Assembly (NCBI RefSeq): GCF_014200435.1
Contig: NZ_JACHBR010000001.1
Coordinates: 682,001 to 746,000 of the forward strand
Reading direction: 5' to 3'
Source of the DNA: Sphaerisporangium krabiense
GTDB taxonomy: Bacteria > Actinomycetota > Actinomycetes > Streptosporangiales > Streptosporangiaceae
DNA length: 64,000 nt
The position numbers were made by a program, and so were the translations under genes. The notes under the pieces are model-generated. The model worked only from the letters and a program-made list of their open reading frames with translations, searched no databases and was not told the origin of the DNA. Shown in pieces: positions 42,721-51,129 of this stretch; positions within the stretch are counted from its first letter, which is position 1, and each line of letters opens with the position of its first letter.

Positions 42721-43164
42721 CTACTGGGCGATCTTGGTGAGCTCGAAGGGGACCGGCTGCTGCGCCTGGTGCGGGTGCTCGGCGCCGGCGTAGACCTTGA
42801 GCTTCTTGGCCATCTTCCGGCCGAGGGAGTTCTTGGGCAGCATGCCCTTCACGGCCTTCTCGACGGCGCGGTCCGGCCGCTTCTCCATCAGCTCGGCGTA
42901 GGACACCGAGCGGAGGCCGCCGGGGTAGCCCGAGTGGCGGTACGCCTTCTTCTGCTCCAGCTTGTTGCCGGTCAGGGCCACCTTGTCGGCATTGATGACG
43001 ATGACGAAGTCACCGGTGTCGACGTGCGGGGCGAAGATCGGCTTGTGCTTACCGCGGAGCAGCGTCGCGACCTGGGTGGCCAGCCGACCCAGCACGACGT
43101 CGGTGGCGTCGATGACGTACCACTGACGCTCTACGTCGGTGGCCTTAGGGGTGAACGTGCGCAC
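42721..43164 (-). CDS. rplM: 50S ribosomal protein L13 (uL13)
   Basis: 147 residues: [20 protein letters not shown] at the start, the block [12 protein letters not shown], then [13 protein letters not shown] and [14 protein letters not shown]. It is the first gene of rplM-rpsI-glmM; a good promoter stands about 150 bp upstream, leaving a leader of about 145 nt. Confidence 0.97.
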
Positions 43165-43582: not shown

Positions 43583-44380
43583 ATGAGTCAGCGCCCCACC
43601 CCCAGAAACGCCCAGAGGTTCCCCCCGAGGCGGACCCACGTGGGCCTGCTGGCATGCCTGACGGCGGCCCTGCTCGCCGGCGTCGTCGTCTCCCGCCTCG
43701 ACCCGCCAGAGCCCCCCGCCGTCGAGGTCTACCTGCAGACCGGCACACCCGCGCCCACCCCCGCGCGCGGCCGCCTGCTCGCCGCGCCCGAGGCCGCCGC
43801 CACCAAGCTGCCGTCGCTCGGCCGCGTGCTGCGCCCGAGCGCGCCCTCCACCGCGGCGCCGCACCCCAGCCCCACGCCCACCCGGTCCGCCAAGCCCCGC
43901 GACACCATCGACGGCACCGGGTCGCGCATCCCCGCCGACGCCAACGTGGGCACGGCCAGCGGCAGCGAGGAGACCGGCCCGCCCGAGGGCGCCGTGCCCG
44001 CGTCCCGCCTGGAGGCCGCGGCCGTCGCGCTCACCAACCAGGAACGGACCCGCAAGGGCTGCGCGCCCCTGCGGAGCGACCCCCGCCTCGCCCGCGCCGC
44101 CCGCGCCCACAGCCGCGACATGGCCGCGCGCAACTACTTCGGCCACACCTCCTCGGACGGCGGCAGCCCGTGGGACCGCATGGCCCGCGCCGGCTACAGC
44201 GCCAGCGCCGCCGAGAACATCGCCCGCGGCTACCAGAGCGCGGAGGAGGCCGTGCGCGGCTGGATGGCCAACAGCGGCCACCGCAGGAACATCCTGAACT
44301 GCCAGATCAAGACGGTGGGCGTCGGGGTCGCCTACGGCTCGGGCGACATCTGGTGGACCCAGGACTTCGGCTATTCCTGA
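43583..44380 (+). CDS. Secreted or membrane-anchored CAP-domain protein
   Basis: 265 residues. A membrane helix or signal (about 19-37, GLLACLTAALLAGVVVSRL) is followed by a Pro/Thr-rich stalk (about 50-135) and a CAP/SCP domain (about 143-265). CAP motifs present: ALTNQERTRKGCAPL, AHSRDMAARNYFGHTS (metal-type His), AAENIARG and NSGHRRNIL. Bacterial CAP proteins are mostly uncharacterised exported proteins. It is first in a row of three plus-strand envelope genes between rplM and truA. Confidence 0.88.
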   Translation: MSQRPTPRNAQRFPPRRTHVGLLACLTAALLAGVVVSRLDPPEPPAVEVYLQTGTPAPTPARGRLLAAPEAAATKLPSLGRVLRPSAPSTAAPHPSPTPTRSAKPRDTIDGTGSRIPADANVGTASGSEETGPPEGAVPASRLEAAAVALTNQERTRKGCAPLRSDPRLARAARAHSRDMAARNYFGHTSSDGGSPWDRMARAGYSASAAENIARGYQSAEEAVRGWMANSGHRRNILNCQIKTVGVGVAYGSGDIWWTQDFGYS

Positions 44381-44415
44381 CCTGTTATGTCGCGCCGCCG
44401 GGCTACTCTCGGCGC

Positions 44416-46425
44416 ATGGGTTACCCCGGGGATCAGCCACAACGCCGTCAGCCTTACCGCCCGTACGAGCCGCAGGAGCCCTCGGGGTCGCGCGACTCGG
44501 AAGAACGCCCCGAAGAGCGCACCGGCCCCTCCGTGCCATGGCCCACCCTCCCGCCGCCCGAGGAGGGCGAGCCCGCGCGACACCCCATGTCCCGCATGGA
44601 AGAGCGCCGCAGGCGCGCGCAGGGCCTGCCCATGGACGACCCCCTGGGCGCCCCGCCCTTCGGATCCCCCGCCGCCGGCGAGTCCTCGGACCCCCGCGGC
44701 GCCGGCGCCCCCTTCGGGCGCGGCCCCGGCGAGGAATCCACCACGAACCCTGACCTGCACGCCGCCCCCCGCCCAGGCGCGAACACCGGCCCCCACCCGT
44801 CCGCGGGCCCGGCCGCCACGCCCTTCGGCACATCCGCCCTCCAGGGGAACACCGGACCAATCGGCCCGTCCGGCCCTCAGGGGAACGCCGGCGCTCTGGG
44901 GTCCGCCGGTCTTCCCGGTGGGGGCGGGGCCGGCTCGGGGACGGGAGGCTTCGGGGCTTCCCCGGCGGGCCCGGGGCGTGGCTCCGGCTTCCAGGGTGAC
45001 CCGCTCTTCTCCAAGGACTTCCGCTTCGGCGACACCCCGTCCGCGAGCGGCACCGGCCACGGACAGCCCGGCCCCGGCGACCAGAGCGCCCCCGGCCCAG
45101 GCGCCGGCCCTCTCCCCGCCGATCCCCTGTCCTCGAATCCGCTGCCGCCCAACCCTCTCTCCTCGAACCCATCGCCGCCGAGCCCCCTGTCCTCGAACGC
45201 CTCGTCTTCGAGTGACCCGCTGACCGGGAGCCAGAACGGCTTCGGCGGCGGGCGCGCGCCCGGCTCGCCACGGGAGCGTGGCGGCGTCTTCGCGGAGCCG
45301 GACGGCCCCACGCCGTTCAACCAGCCCTTCGAGCGCGTCTTCGGCAAGCCCGACTCCCGGCCGTACGAATCCCCTCAGACCCCGGTCTCCGCATCACCCC
45401 CGGGCCCGACCTCGGCGTTCGAGCCGCCCCGGGCCCCGAGCCGTCCCTTCGAGTCCGCGCAGTCCCAGCCCGAGTCGTTCGGAGGCGGCCGCGCGCCGAA
45501 CCGACCCTTCGAGGCGTCGCCGGACAGGCCCGCCGGCTCGCCGGAAACGCCCGGCGCCGAGGAGCGCCCGTTCGAGGCGTTCGCGCCGCAGAGCCCCGGC
45601 CTGCTCTCCCGCCCGCGAAAGGACGGCCGTCCGTCCGAAGGCGAACCGCCGCCTCCCCCTATGGAGACGCGCAGGTCGGAGCCCGAGCCCGACGACCGGC
45701 GTTCCCGGGCGCCGCTGATCGTCGGCGGCGGCCTGGTCGGCCTGATCGGCGTGGTCGTCGCGGGCGTCATGTTCCTGAACAGCCTCGACGATCCGCCGAC
45801 GACGGCCGCCGTCCCCAACACTCGCCCGACCGCGCAGGCCCCGATCGTCACGAGCAACAATGACAAGTACGGATTCGCGGCCTCACGGAAGACCGACCCG
45901 CAGCCGCTCACGCTGAAGGAGGTCTTCGGCCACAAGACGGTGACCGCGCACGGCCGGTCCTACCTGATGACGGTGCGCCGGACGGACAAGAAGTGCGGCG
46001 ACGCGGTGCACGGCACGGGCATCCAGAAGGCCCTGAAGGCGGGGGGCTGCACGCAGTTCCTGCGCGCCAGCTTCCGCGACAAGCGGGGCGACCTCATCGG
46101 GACGGTCGGCGTGGGGAACCTGAAGACGGCCGCCGCCGCCAAGAAGGCCGGGAAGACCGGGACGGGCAAGGAGCTGGCCGACTACGTGACGCCGCTGCCC
46201 GGCAAGGACACGGCGACCAAGCTGCTCGGCGGCCCCGGGGAGTCCTTCGCCGCCGCCTGGCCGCAGGGGCACTACCTCGTCATGCTGTGGTTCCAGTACA
46301 AGGACGGGCACAAGCCCTCCAAGAACGAGATGAAGCAGCTCAATCGGGCCGCTCTCGACATCACGGAGGCGACGGTGTTCGCGGCTCTGGACACACGCGC
46401 GCTTACCGGAGCGAAAACCAATTGA
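44416..46425 (+). CDS. Giant proline-rich single-pass membrane protein, paralogue A
   Basis: 669 residues, not a family I recognise. Residues 1-432 are disordered and rich in P/G/S, with recurring PLSSNP/PLPPNP and RPFE-type motifs. A single helix follows (about 433-455, LIVGGGLVGLIGVVVAGVMF), then an outside domain of about 210 residues starting KTDPQPLTLKEVFGHKTVTA. The latter is clearly related to the end of paralogue B (KTDPKKLTLKEAFSQQKVTV; both then have KA-GCT-LRA and YxDGH). ATG 44416 has no Shine-Dalgarno, but TACTCT lies 6 nt upstream, suggesting a leaderless transcript. It begins 35 bp after the CAP gene. Confidence 0.8.
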   Translation: MGYPGDQPQRRQPYRPYEPQEPSGSRDSEERPEERTGPSVPWPTLPPPEEGEPARHPMSRMEERRRRAQGLPMDDPLGAPPFGSPAAGESSDPRGAGAPFGRGPGEESTTNPDLHAAPRPGANTGPHPSAGPAATPFGTSALQGNTGPIGPSGPQGNAGALGSAGLPGGGGAGSGTGGFGASPAGPGRGSGFQGDPLFSKDFRFGDTPSASGTGHGQPGPGDQSAPGPGAGPLPADPLSSNPLPPNPLSSNPSPPSPLSSNASSSSDPLTGSQNGFGGGRAPGSPRERGGVFAEPDGPTPFNQPFERVFGKPDSRPYESPQTPVSASPPGPTSAFEPPRAPSRPFESAQSQPESFGGGRAPNRPFEASPDRPAGSPETPGAEERPFEAFAPQSPGLLSRPRKDGRPSEGEPPPPPMETRRSEPEPDDRRSRAPLIVGGGLVGLIGVVVAGVMFLNSLDDPPTTAAVPNTRPTAQAPIVTSNNDKYGFAASRKTDPQPLTLKEVFGHKTVTAHGRSYLMTVRRTDKKCGDAVHGTGIQKALKAGGCTQFLRASFRDKRGDLIGTVGVGNLKTAAAAKKAGKTGTGKELADYVTPLPGKDTATKLLGGPGESFAAAWPQGHYLVMLWFQYKDGHKPSKNEMKQLNRAALDITEATVFAALDTRALTGAKTN

Positions 46426-46490
46426 TACTTAATAGCCCCATAAACGCACATAACCACACAGATCGGGTGTGACCTAGACCCGGAAACGCC

Positions 46491-46526
46491 CATACCGGTA
46501 TGCCGATCTCCGACTGTGGATACGCT
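46491..46526 (+). promoter_or_regulatory. Palindrome and -10 box before paralogue B
   Basis: Perfect 12-bp palindrome CATACCGGTATG (46491-46502) followed by TACGCT (46521-46526), 7 nt before the ATG at 46534. The dyad covers the -35 position, so it may be an operator. The surrounding 80 bp are AT-rich for this genome. Confidence 0.45.
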
Positions 46527-46533
46527 TCCGCGT

Positions 46534-49500
46534 ATGCGTGGCCAGGATTCCGGATCCGAGCACGAGCGAGAGACCGAGAGTTCGGGGGCTCCGGCGATGC
46601 CGCCCCCGAGCTTCGGACAGGCGCATCAGCCCGTGCCACGGACCGAAGACGACACGAAGAACCCCGCCTCACCACACCGGCAGGCGAGGTCCCACGACAC
46701 ATCCCCTGACCACTCCCCCTTCCCGGCACCTCCCACGGACGGACAGACGCGCCCAGGCATGCCGAGCAAGCACTCCAAGAAGCCCGACCCCGCCCCGGCA
46801 CCGCCGCCCCCGGGCGCCCCGTCTCCCATGGACGCCCCCCGCTCCTGGGGCCGCCCTCACTCAGGGACCGGTCAGGTGCCCGCCGAGGACACGCGGCGGG
46901 CGTGGGGGCGTGGCGAATCACAGCCGTGGCCCGCCGCCGAGCGGTTCCCCGGCGAGCAGGAGTGGTTCGGACCGTCCAACCCGCTGGACGACACCCCTGC
47001 CTCCCGAACCCCGAGCACCCAACCCTGGCCCGGCACCGACCAGAGCCCCGCCGGATCCTCTCCGGCGTCTCCGGCCATGGCCCACCCGGACCAGACCGTG
47101 CCCAGGACGGCGAACGGCCCGGCAGCCGACCTCTTCCCGCTGACCCCCTCCCGCGAATCGCAACTGGACCAGACCCGCCCCGGCGGCACACTCCCCGCCT
47201 TCCCGCCCGTCGACACACCCCTGCCAACGGCCACACCGGGCGTCCCGGCCACGCCGAGCGCCCCCGCCACGCAGGGCGCTGGGACCCCCACCCCGTCAGC
47301 GGCCACGGAAGCCCCCGCGATCCCCGGCGCTTCAGCCCCGACCATGCCGAACGCGTCGACGCCGTCGATCTCACCGGCGGCACCGGCGCCACCGGCGGCA
47401 CGACCACCGGCAGCGGCACCATCGGCGGCGCCGGGGTCATCGGCGGCATCGGCCAGTCGGTCACAGTCGCCGACCGAGCGGGCGAGACCGACACGGCCCG
47501 GCGAGCCGGGAGACGTGCCCGTCTGGCCCCTTGAGTCGAGCCCCGCGGACGACGTCGGCGGTGAGTCGCATGGGCGTGCCGTCGCCGGTGGCGAGCGTTC
47601 CCCAGGGGAGCCGTCAGGACAGCCGTCCCAGGCCGGCGCGGAGATCCCGTCGCCGTCGAAGCCCGAGCCCGCCGGGCCGGGCGGGCCCGCGACTCCTGGT
47701 CCCAGGCCCTCGCCGGTTCCCGCGCCCTCTCCCGTCCCCACGCCTACGGTGCCCGCGCCGTCGCCTCCGCCGGTCCCCACACCGTCGATCCCGGCACCGC
47801 GCCCGTCCGCATCCGCGACGCCGCCCACGACCGACCCTTCGGACTCCCCCTCCGCCCCCCAACTCCCGGCACCCCAGCACGGCGCGCAGGCACCCACACA
47901 TGAGCAGTCGCCGACCGCCCAGCACGGCGCGCACCCGACAGATGTACGGTTCCCGGCGGCCCAGCACGGTGCGCAGCCACCTGCAGGTGTGCAGTCTCCC
48001 CCCGACCAGCACGGCGCGCGGCCGCCGACGGGTGAGCAGTCCCCGGCCGATCGGCAAGAGGAGCGGAAGGGCGTTCCTCTGCTTCCGCGCTCGCAGGCGG
48101 GGCCTCCCCCGCCGAAGCCCGCGACCACGTCCGGCAGGGTGCCGGGCACGCCGCTGCCTCCCGCGCCGGTGACGCTTCCTCCCTGGCCCGGTTCGGCCCG
48201 GCGAGACCCCGGGGCCGCGCAGACGTCATCCCCCACACCCCCGCCGTCGGCCGCTACGCCAGGAACTCCCCCTGGACCGGCCCCTTCGGCGTCTCCCTCA
48301 GGACCAGCCCTCCCGGGGTCTCCGTCCGGGCCGGCCCCCTCGGGACCGGCTCCCTCAGGGCCTCTTCCGCCGCCGGGCACGCCGCTTCCCCCCGCGCCGG
48401 TGACCAGCGACGCCCTGACCCGGACGCCGCCGTACTCCGGGTCCGCGGAGACGCCGGCCGCGGCCGGCGCCGGACCCAAGGACGTCCTGGGTCCGGCATC
48501 GACGAACAGCGAGATACGAACCGATTCCGGCACGGCACGACTGCGACCCCCGCCGGCCCCTGGCACCCCGCTTCCGCCCGCGCCGCGGAGCCTGTCCCTG
48601 GTGCCGCCGCTGGGCTCGGAGCCCCAGGCTGCAGCCATCAGGTCCGCGTCACCCAGTGACGCCACTCCCCTGGCGTCCCCGATCCCCACGGCGCCCGCGC
48701 CCTCACCGGCACCCCCCACCGCTCCCGGCCCGAACTCCCCCATGGCTCCGACGGCCGCCCCGCCGGGAACCGGCTCCGCGCCTCCGTCCGCCGCCAACCC
48801 CACCGGTCCGAACGCCCTCGCCGCCAACCCCACCGGCCTGATGGGCCCCGCCGTCACACCTGTCACCGGGCCGAACGGTCCCGCCGTGCCGCCCGTCGTG
48901 GGGCCGAACGGTCCCGCCGCCGCACCGTCCACCGGCTCGGGCGGGCACTCGTCCGGCAAGGACGTCGTCCCGGCCCGCTCGGCCGTCCTCGCGACGGGGC
49001 CGGTCGTGGACGCGAACCGGGCGGCGTCCGGCGCGCAGGCCGGGCAGCCGGGGGCCTCGGGCGCGGTGCAGGAACGGCCCCCGTTCGTCCCGCCCGGCGC
49101 GGTTCCGCCGCCGGAGCAGCCGTCCGCGCCGTCCGAAGGGAACTCGCGCAAGCGCGTGGTGCTGGTCGCCGGGGTGGCCGTGGCCGTCGCCGCGGTCGGC
49201 ACCGCCGCCGTCTTCGGCTACCAGGCGTTCAACCGGGACAACGCTCCGATGAGCCTGCCCGAGCCGCTGCCGTCCGTCGACGTCGTGATCCCCGAGCCCA
49301 CGGACCTGGCCTCGCCCGAGCCGTCCCCGGTCGTGACCACGGTGCTCAACTCCGAGAAGACCGACCCGAAGAAGCTGACGCTGAAGGAGGCGTTCTCCCA
49401 GCAGAAGGTGACGGTCGAGGGCCGCGCCTACGTCCGCGCCAAGGTGGACCTCACCGCCCAGTGGCAGAAGGCCGCGGTCGGGACGTTCGCCACGGCGCTG

Positions 49501-49866
49501 AAGAAGGCCGGGTGCACGCGGGTGCTGCGGGCGACGTACGTGGACGGCAAGCGGCGTTACGCCGTCACGACCGGCATCGCGGTGTTCCCGACCAAGCAGG
49601 CCGCCGTCGCCGTGGACAAGAAGAAGGATCTGGCGAAGACGGTCTGGTTCCGCGGCCTGGCGGGCGACGCGGGCAGCGGCGCGGACAAGGCGGACATCGC
49701 CGGCGGGTACGCGTCCGGGCTGGTCTGGGGCCGCTACATCATCTTCAGCTTCGCGACCTACGCCGACGGCCACACCCCCACCGCCGCCGAGAAGGACCTC
49801 GCCCCCATCAGCGGCGCCTTCCGCGACCACACCGCCAAAGTGATCCAGAAACGCCTCACCGGCTGA
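46534..49866 (+). CDS. Giant proline-rich single-pass membrane protein, paralogue B
   Basis: 1110 residues, not recognised. About 870 residues of P/A/S/G-rich disorder come first. They hold a repeat block with five QHGA-x-P units (about 445-500) and three copies of GTPLPPAP (about 545, 620, 670). One membrane helix follows (about 874-897, VVLVAGVAVAVAAVGTAAVF), then an outside domain (about 900-1110) homologous to that of paralogue A. Basic residues (SRKR) before the helix place the long arm in the cytosol. ATG 46534 is preferred as a leaderless start; GTG 46516 is the alternative. It is separated from paralogue A by 108 bp and has its own promoter signal. Confidence 0.78.
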   Translation: MRGQDSGSEHERETESSGAPAMPPPSFGQAHQPVPRTEDDTKNPASPHRQARSHDTSPDHSPFPAPPTDGQTRPGMPSKHSKKPDPAPAPPPPGAPSPMDAPRSWGRPHSGTGQVPAEDTRRAWGRGESQPWPAAERFPGEQEWFGPSNPLDDTPASRTPSTQPWPGTDQSPAGSSPASPAMAHPDQTVPRTANGPAADLFPLTPSRESQLDQTRPGGTLPAFPPVDTPLPTATPGVPATPSAPATQGAGTPTPSAATEAPAIPGASAPTMPNASTPSISPAAPAPPAARPPAAAPSAAPGSSAASASRSQSPTERARPTRPGEPGDVPVWPLESSPADDVGGESHGRAVAGGERSPGEPSGQPSQAGAEIPSPSKPEPAGPGGPATPGPRPSPVPAPSPVPTPTVPAPSPPPVPTPSIPAPRPSASATPPTTDPSDSPSAPQLPAPQHGAQAPTHEQSPTAQHGAHPTDVRFPAAQHGAQPPAGVQSPPDQHGARPPTGEQSPADRQEERKGVPLLPRSQAGPPPPKPATTSGRVPGTPLPPAPVTLPPWPGSARRDPGAAQTSSPTPPPSAATPGTPPGPAPSASPSGPALPGSPSGPAPSGPAPSGPLPPPGTPLPPAPVTSDALTRTPPYSGSAETPAAAGAGPKDVLGPASTNSEIRTDSGTARLRPPPAPGTPLPPAPRSLSLVPPLGSEPQAAAIRSASPSDATPLASPIPTAPAPSPAPPTAPGPNSPMAPTAAPPGTGSAPPSAANPTGPNALAANPTGLMGPAVTPVTGPNGPAVPPVVGPNGPAAAPSTGSGGHSSGKDVVPARSAVLATGPVVDANRAASGAQAGQPGASGAVQERPPFVPPGAVPPPEQPSAPSEGNSRKRVVLVAGVAVAVAAVGTAAVFGYQAFNRDNAPMSLPEPLPSVDVVIPEPTDLASPEPSPVVTTVLNSEKTDPKKLTLKEAFSQQKVTVEGRAYVRAKVDLTAQWQKAAVGTFATALKKAGCTRVLRATYVDGKRRYAVTTGIAVFPTKQAAVAVDKKKDLAKTVWFRGLAGDAGSGADKADIAGGYASGLVWGRYIIFSFATYADGHTPTAAEKDLAPISGAFRDHTAKVIQKRLTG

Positions 49867-49901: not shown

Positions 49902-49939
49902 CGACCGCTGATCGGCCCATGAGGACGGGTCAGCGGTCG
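49902..49939. terminator. Hairpin between paralogue B and truA
   Basis: Arms CGACCGCTGA (49902-49911) and TCAGCGGTCG (49930-49939), 18-nt loop. The right arm includes the truA stop. Placed between convergent genes; no T-run. Confidence 0.55.
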
Positions 49940-51129
49940 AGGGTGCGGACGCGGCGCGTTCGGCTGGCGCGGGCGCTCAGGTCTTCGGGAGCGGGGTAGC
50001 GGACCTCTTCGAGGCAGAGGCCGTGGGCGGGGGCGACGCTGACGCCGGAGTCGCGGACGGCGTTGACGAGCACGGTGCCCGGCCATTCGACGGGCCGGTT
50101 GCCCTCGCCGACGGCGAGCAGCGCGCCGACCAGCGCGCGGACCATCGAGTGGCAGAAGGCGTCGGCCACGACCGTGGCCACGAGCAGCTCGTCGGGCTCG
50201 CGGGTCCACTCCAGGCGCTGGAGCTCGCGGATCGTGGTGGCCCCCTCGCGGCGCTTGCAGAAGGCGGCGAAGTCGTGCTCGCCGATGAGCCGGGCCGCCG
50301 CCGCGTTCATCCGGCCGACGTCCAGGGGCCGGGGGTACCAGAGGATCTCGTTCCTGCGCAGCGGGTCCACGCCGCCGGGCGCGTCGCCCACCCGGTAGGC
50401 GTACCGGCGGGACAGGGCGGAGAAGCGCGCGTCGAAGCCCTCAGGAGCCTCCGTGACGGCCCGCACCCGCACATCCAAGGGAAGTACACCCGCGAGCCGC
50501 CGCGTCAGCGCAGAGAGCCGCTCAGCCGTGCTCCACGGGGTCGTGGCGCGGCGTCCCTCGACCGCGCTCAGGGAGGCGGCCGGGACGTCGAGGTGGACCA
50601 CCTGCCCGCGCGCGTGGACGCCCGCGTCCGTGCGGCCGGCGACGGTCAGCGAGGGAGGCGGGTCCAGGCGCAGGACGCGGCCGAGGGCCTTCTCCAGCTC
50701 GCCCTGCACGGTACGCAGTCCCGGCTGCCGCGCCCACCCGAAGAAATCCGTGCCGTCGTACGCGAGGTCCATCCGGAGCCGTACGAGCACCTCGTCGCCG
50801 CCCTCTGCCGCCGTCGCGCTGTCAGACGCGTGGCTCCCCGGCTCCCGGCCGTCACCGGCGGAGCCCGGCGACTCGACGGCCGGGGAGGTGACGGGCGCGC
50901 CGGACACGGGCGCGGCACCGGAGAACGCCTTTGTGGAAGCAACGGAGGTCGCAGGAGCGGTTCCCGGGGAGACGGAAACCGCGGCGGTTCCCAGCGTGGC
51001 GGGAACAGGGGAGGTTCCCCCGGCGGGAACAGGAGCGCTCCCCGGGCCGGCGGGAACAGGAGTGGTCCCCGGGGCGGTGGGGACAGGGGCCGTTCCCGGG
51101 GCGGCGGGAAGGCGGGGTGGGTTCGTCAT
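49930..51129 (-). CDS. truA: tRNA pseudouridine(38-40) synthase with Pro/Ala-rich N-terminal extension
   Basis: Makes pseudouridine at positions 38-40 of tRNA. The TruA core begins near residue 114 ([20 protein letters not shown]), with the catalytic Asp168 in [13 protein letters not shown] and the typical [19 protein letters not shown]. Ahead of it lie about 113 residues of low-complexity sequence built from GTAPVP/GSAPVP units. The ATG at 51129 has AGGAG 6 nt upstream, so the extension is probably translated; an in-frame Met at residue 120 lies too far inside. It follows rplQ in the alpha operon, as usual. Confidence 0.92.

Follow-up and report, generated by a model that had tools for sequence, protein, structure and literature searches.

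The outer domain of the receptor kinase PknH stands outside a single membrane helix. Mycosins are usually studied as parts of type VII secretion, and one paper describes mycosin as a tail-anchored protease associated with this system (PMC10924467). Here, we analysed a stretch of 64,000 nucleotides from Sphaerisporangium krabiense (contig NZ_JACHBR010000001.1, positions 682,001 to 746,000; hereafter the window), in which three genes lie between rplM and truA. They encode a CAP-domain protein and two large proteins, A1 and A2, each comprising an N-terminal tip, a disordered arm, a membrane helix and an outer domain. A1 and A2 are members of an as yet unnamed family of actinobacterial proteins. 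This genome carries six genes of the family, arranged as three pairs: pair A lies between rplM and truA, pair B between moeZ and ogt, and pair C between lgt and gltB. Branch A keeps its place across genomes, and branch B is coupled to genes of mycosin-like proteases. As the simplest account, we tentatively propose that A1 and A2 are members of a family of membrane-anchored partners of mycosin-like proteases, with the arms acting as variable tethers that carry a docking tip. A literature search found nothing on the A1/A2 family or on a dedicated mycosin partner.

The mycosin link of this family lies outside the window and was invisible to the original prediction on this locus, which was made from the window. 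A strictly coupled partner beside mycosin-like proteases, away from a type VII cluster, would make a stand-alone role of the protease directly testable in harmless laboratory actinomycetes. With lengths of 40 to 1497 residues and tips conserved in the nearer genera, the arms lend themselves as a natural series to the study of disordered tethers at the bacterial membrane.

Coupling of branch B to mycosin-like proteases

A mycosin-like subtilase gene is found directly behind every branch-B gene observed (59/59); 24 of these genes come from a first set of 17 loci and 35 from 20 further loci. The protease start codon nearest the stop, a choice that favours overlap, overlaps the branch-B stop in 56 of the 59 cases and lies 2, 2 and 40 nucleotides beyond it in the other three. 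The coupling is seen in three families, namely the window's own, f20 (presumably Streptomyces) and f6 (presumably the mycobacterial family). Ten mapped f20 and f6 loci exhibit the protease and no match to moeZ or ogt. In the window's genome, each of the two domain genes of the B locus overlaps a downstream mycosin-like subtilase gene.

The active-site Asp, His and Ser are intact in 23 of the 24 proteases examined among the 59 seen, and a C-terminal hydrophobic stretch (hydropathy of at least 1.6 within the final 80 residues) is present in 22 of 24 B-coupled proteases. The first B-coupled protease of the window's genome matches PF00082 with an expectation value (E) of 7e-44. The two own B-coupled proteases are second and third in the genome for TIGR03921, with 261.3 and 219.3 bits, below the cut-off of 278.75 bits, which no match reached in the own-genome scan. 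They lie outside a type VII secretion cluster: the B locus is at 3.69 Mb of contig C1, and the only EccB match is at 5.09 Mb, about 1.4 Mb away. The genome's best mycosin-like protease (L162, C1 5.108-5.127 Mb) is about 31 kb from this EccB match, and a protein-kinase-like gene was seen by eye near it.

Spread of the family and the rplM-truA site

With the A2 domain as query, a match was found in 42 of 60 genomes, a set made up of the window's genome, its relatives and members of the class. With a 24-row alignment as query, a match was found in at least 11 of 296 genomes sampled across the phylum, which is a lower bound as at most 10 candidates were scored per genome. When the window's genome was first scanned with A2, the lowest-ranking match (C1:5487657, E 0.2) had the sequence of a copper P-type ATPase and was taken as chance. 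The branch profiles link A to B at 99.4%, A to C at 99.8%, and B to C at 94.6%. In a tree of 84 domains, B stands apart from A plus C with full support, and the A1-type rows cluster with C, not with A2, at 90/95 support. Given this grouping, A1 and A2 appear to be ancient paralogues. At distant loci, the A1 and A2 labels are best hits, and the tree puts some of them elsewhere. L088 was excluded from the profiles and the tree. L051, which duplicates L015, was excluded from the profiles and from the tip, promoter, arm and flank-charge counts; the CAP tally made alongside the arm counts did include it (CAP neighbours are found in 16/30 loci with L051 and in 15/29 without it).

Base-composition gene calls missed most A genes, and the locus counts were therefore taken from homology maps. 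The A-type place, flanked by rplM and truA, is found in 27 of 29 distinct loci; in the other two (L072 and L073), the contig stops within the locus. Both A1 and A2 are present in 16 of the 29 loci. A CAP neighbour is present in 15, mostly in the nearer genera; the other 14, mostly more distant, still exhibit an A-type gene in the same place. The proposed linkage is supported for the adjoining A1 and A2 and for their place, but not for the three genes as one unit. In G135, an A-type gene is near truA, with rplM about 43 kb away. In G056, a weak match next to rplM (E 1.5e-4) was not recovered in the locus mapping and is outside the 29 loci.

The site had been described as one normally occupied only by housekeeping genes, which turned out to be wrong. 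The rplM neighbourhood was searched in 14 other genomes and fetched for 12. EccB and mycosin genes lie between rplM and truA in three of these 12 (L170, L171 and L178), as in ESX-4. Because of this, the slot, which harbours type VII secretion genes in some relatives, is not reserved for housekeeping genes. In L177 and L180, a mycosin-like gene is located on the truA side of rplM, and the stretch ends before truA. No mycosin-like gene was found in the remaining seven neighbourhoods, five of which stop short of truA. In L180, WXG100-like and FtsK-like genes were also seen by eye. The ESX-4 cluster of M. tuberculosis is one that we take to be located by rplM and truA. Its range is given as Rv3444c-Rv3450c (PMC1660551). 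The literature search found nothing on ESX-4 beside rplM and truA.

Architecture and start sites of A1 and A2

The coordinates, lengths and open frames originally given for the three genes were right, and the frames are intact (Table 1). The CAP protein is a member of the CAP superfamily (PF00188, E 5e-26, 92.3 bits versus a cut-off of 21.1) and exhibits, by eye, a hydrophobic stretch near its N-terminus and a Pro-rich linker. A1 and A2 do share the proposed plan, with a long arm rich in Pro, Ala, Ser and Gly, a single helix by hydropathy, and homologous outer domains (31% identity over 180 columns, E 2e-17 by BLASTP).

Table 1 Features of the rplM-truA locus and of the two related loci of the same genome. 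Positions are those of the window unless another locus is named.
Feature	Position	Strand	Basis or remark
CAP-domain protein, 265 aa	43583..44380	+	CAP domain residues 149-262
A1: tip, disordered arm, helix, outer domain; 669 aa	44416..46425	+	
A2: tip, disordered arm, helix, outer domain; 1110 aa	46534..49866	+	
TACTCT, -10-like hexamer 6 nt before A1 ATG	44404..44409	+	probable leaderless promoter
A1 arm tip MGYPGDQPQRRQPY	44416..44457	+	N-terminal conservation
A1 membrane helix, residues 434-452	45715..45771	+	hydropathy 2.47
A1 outer domain with conserved Cys pair	45889..46422	+	alignment; AlphaFold2 mean pLDDT 78, pTM 0.77
TACGCT, -10-like hexamer 7 nt before A2 ATG	46521..46526	+	probable leaderless promoter
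A2 arm tip MRGQDSGSEHERETESSGAPAMPPPSFGQ	46534..46620	+	N-terminal conservation
A2 membrane helix, residues 875-893	49156..49212	+	hydropathy 2.55
A2 outer domain	49357..49863	+	alignment; AlphaFold2 mean pLDDT 78, pTM 0.80
rplM, flanking gene	42721..43164	-	
truA, flanking gene	49930..50700	-	stretch that served as query
B locus	L019 6683-10873, C1 3.69 Mb		two outer-domain genes, protease gene between and behind them, moeZ/ogt flanks
C pair	L018 7027-8492, C1 5.80 Mb		between lgt and gltB, arms mostly short
aa, amino acids; nt, nucleotides; pLDDT, predicted local distance difference test; pTM, predicted template-modelling score.

An outer domain of about 210 residues had been announced. The domain is there, but it comprises 178 residues in A1 and 169 in A2 from KTDP to the stop, the figure of 210 including the stalk. 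Both domains begin at KTDP, but the longer start motif KTDPxxLTLKEAF does not hold for A1, which reads KTDPQPLTLKEVF. The domain was rightly considered unrecognised, as no model reached its cut-off in the Pfam and NCBIfam scans of A1 and A2. No solved relative was found by sequence at E up to 10. A match of NF051463 to 1 of 24 members (0.0021) was taken as chance. In the 24-row alignment, one Cys column is invariant and its partner is conserved at 90% or more; the A2 of the window's species and that of S. album have lost the first Cys of the pair. The four branch-B rows exhibit four Cys, the extra two being near the C-terminus. One AlphaFold2 model was obtained per paralogue, both built from the same eight sequences. 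The family is characterized by a small alpha/beta outer domain, usually with a conserved Cys pair, on a single-pass, probably N-inside membrane protein.

The arm comprises about 433 residues in A1 and about 874 in A2, with Pro, Ala, Ser, Gly and Thr accounting for 60% and 69% of them, respectively; this analysis of arm and helix ran on frames 21 and 6 residues longer, and the helix positions were renumbered. Of the two helix flanks, the inner carries the more positive charge in 16/20 A1-type, 24/25 A2-type, 11/15 B-type and 14/14 C-type proteins. Judging from this charge difference, the arm of A1 and A2 is likely cytosolic, as originally proposed. Arm length ranges from 48 to 540 residues in A1-type proteins and from 40 to 1497, the full range of branch A, in A2-type proteins, with the starts, and hence the arm lengths, of distant A-type proteins being set mechanically. 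The B and C copies in the window's family mostly exhibit short arms, with medians of 54 and 60 residues. A C member in G025 (L082) has an arm of about 505 residues. In the f20 loci L140, L141 and L143-L147, several branch-B proteins exhibit, by eye, Pro-rich arms of several hundred residues, and the rplM-truA copy of the same genomes is short-armed, so the long arm moves between branches.

The arm interiors exhibit no sequence conservation, unlike the tips. The mean pairwise identity is 0.61 over residues 1-10 of the A1 tip (16 sequences), versus 0.10 for random arm 10-mers, and 0.81, 0.46 and 0.57 over residues 1-10, 11-20 and 21-30 of the A2 tip (14 sequences), versus 0.12; these tip values are biased upward because the sequences, which are mutually related and non-independent, were chosen by that N-terminal motif. 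The conservation is confined to the nearer genera: more distant loci, e.g. L062-L069, do not show the motif, A1 of L064 excepted.

In the same two sets, a promoter-like TANNNT hexamer is present right before the start, 6-7 nucleotides upstream of the ATG in 16/16 A1 genes and 7 nucleotides upstream in 14/14 A2 genes. Such a hexamer precedes 5 of the 613 plus-strand ATGs of the window, necessarily including those of A1 and A2. A Shine-Dalgarno-like 4-mer was found upstream of 0/16 A1 and 0/14 A2 genes. The conserved hexamer supports the start codons used for A1 and A2. As the hexamer occurs in all 30 genes, which have no Shine-Dalgarno-like 4-mer, and is rare at window ATGs, A1 and A2 are likely transcribed leaderless from their own promoters.

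Proposed role, alternatives and comparison with known systems

In the proposed partnership, the outer domain would dock at the cell surface on mycosin-like subtilases anchored in the membrane, and the docked domain would set the place, timing or stability of protease action. Branch B would act on the protease whose gene directly follows its own, and A1 and A2 would work in trans, with the branch-B proteases or a successor partner as their target. The disordered cytosolic arm would be a tether of variable length, with its interior as a spacer and its conserved first residues as a docking peptide for a cytosolic partner. We infer the contact between outer domain and protease, the sharing of the B function by A1 and A2, and the partner of the tip. 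In a wider picture, actinomycetes would possess a surface proteolysis system apart from type VII secretion, in which mycosin-like proteases have dedicated, co-translated membrane partners, and A1 and A2 are expanded members whose giant inner arms, with their docking tip, couple the outside state to the cytosol. We consider this wider picture unlikely.

Several observations weigh against the partnership. No mycosin-like gene was found in the mapped A or C loci, so A1 and A2 are linked to the proteases by kinship only. The branch between B and the group of A plus C is long, at about 1.6 changes per column, which leaves room for an altered function. In G141, no mycosin-like gene was found in the 14-kb stretch (L164) around a distant relative (E 3.7e-6). 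In L078, the second mycosin-like gene (7644 on) has lost all three catalytic residues and has kept its partner gene; its sequence makes it a likely pseudoprotease. The overlaps were scored favourably, as described above, and gene coupling indicates a shared role, not contact. Finally, the fold searches point weakly to sensor or lipid-binding domains and not to protease partners.

These fold matches bear on the main alternative, a strong one and only slightly less likely than the partnership, in which the family comprises kinase-less PknH-like receptors whose outer domain senses an envelope ligand and whose arm signals to a cytosolic partner at the tip. In a Foldseek search of the PDB, the PknH ectodomain (4esq) and TiME occupy the first two places for both models, which share their eight source sequences. 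The PknH ectodomain ranks second and first for the two models (E 0.026 and 0.091, template-modelling (TM) score 0.35), but the PknH and TiME chains are matched at E 0.01-0.3 with TM 0.30-0.40, the best chains at E 0.01-0.1, and no match of either outer-domain model reaches E 0.001. Regarding sequence, PknH_C (PF14032) matches 3 of 24 members at E up to 0.1 (best 0.00099) in the Pfam scan and DUF7373 matches 2 of 24, but the best PknH_C score, that of B1, is 19.9 bits (E 7e-4) for a cut-off of 27 bits, and hhalign against PknH_C gives a non-significant probability of 0.3-1.3%. In the profile comparison, for which 16 PknH_C domains were chosen from 45 matches, branch A (19.5 versus a maximum of 17.7) and the pooled profile (17.6 versus 17.1) score above all 40 column-shuffled PknH_C controls, whereas B (15.6 versus 18.6) and C (14.9 versus 17.2) do not. 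The four branch-B rows and 15 of the 16 PknH_C domains agree in the number of Cys, which is four. The Pfam scan of A1 and A2 gave no kinase match, in which they differ from the PknH receptor kinase.

A role as a lipid- or envelope-precursor-binding accessory protein, working with a transporter like TiME or CoxG, appears improbable. In the Foldseek searches, TiME ranks first and second for the two models and CoxG sixth and fourth, but the scores are not significant. Inspection by eye of the genes called in the own B and C loci revealed no transporter gene, the other loci being unsearched for transporters. The original prediction considered the giant arm itself as the function, in a membrane scaffold or condensate former. 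An extreme arm composition and length are indeed retained as a type across many branch-A proteins, but the wide range of arm lengths in branch A and the short medians of B and C in the window's family weigh against this role. The poor conservation of arm length in branch A speaks against a length-critical scaffold, and the conserved residues are those of the tips, not of the interior. We regard this role as improbable.

Among the known systems, the PknH_C domain and its structure 4esq resemble the A1/A2 family in size, in their place outside a single helix, in the top-two fold match of both models, and in the number of Cys in branch B (four). They differ in that A1 and A2 have no kinase, no sequence or fold score is significant, and only one Cys pair is family-wide. 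The A1/A2 family may share the PknH_C fold but cannot be filed under PknH_C. The soluble domain of TiME (7cu8 and 7cu9), on which the literature search found nothing, is the first or second fold match of both models, but the Foldseek E is 0.01 at best, with the low TM scores given above. TiME is possibly the protein TtfA. DUF7373 (PF24088) partially matches A1 and the 2 of 24 members mentioned above (E up to 0.1, best 0.00016), but the A1 domain reaches 18.2 bits for a cut-off of 27. EccB differs from the A1/A2 family, since PF05108 is absent from the Pfam scans of the outer domains of this family. Nevertheless, the EccB and mycosin pair of type VII secretion likewise brings together the genes of a mycosin-like protease and of a membrane protein bearing an outer domain, and this pair occupies the same rplM-truA slot in three other genomes.

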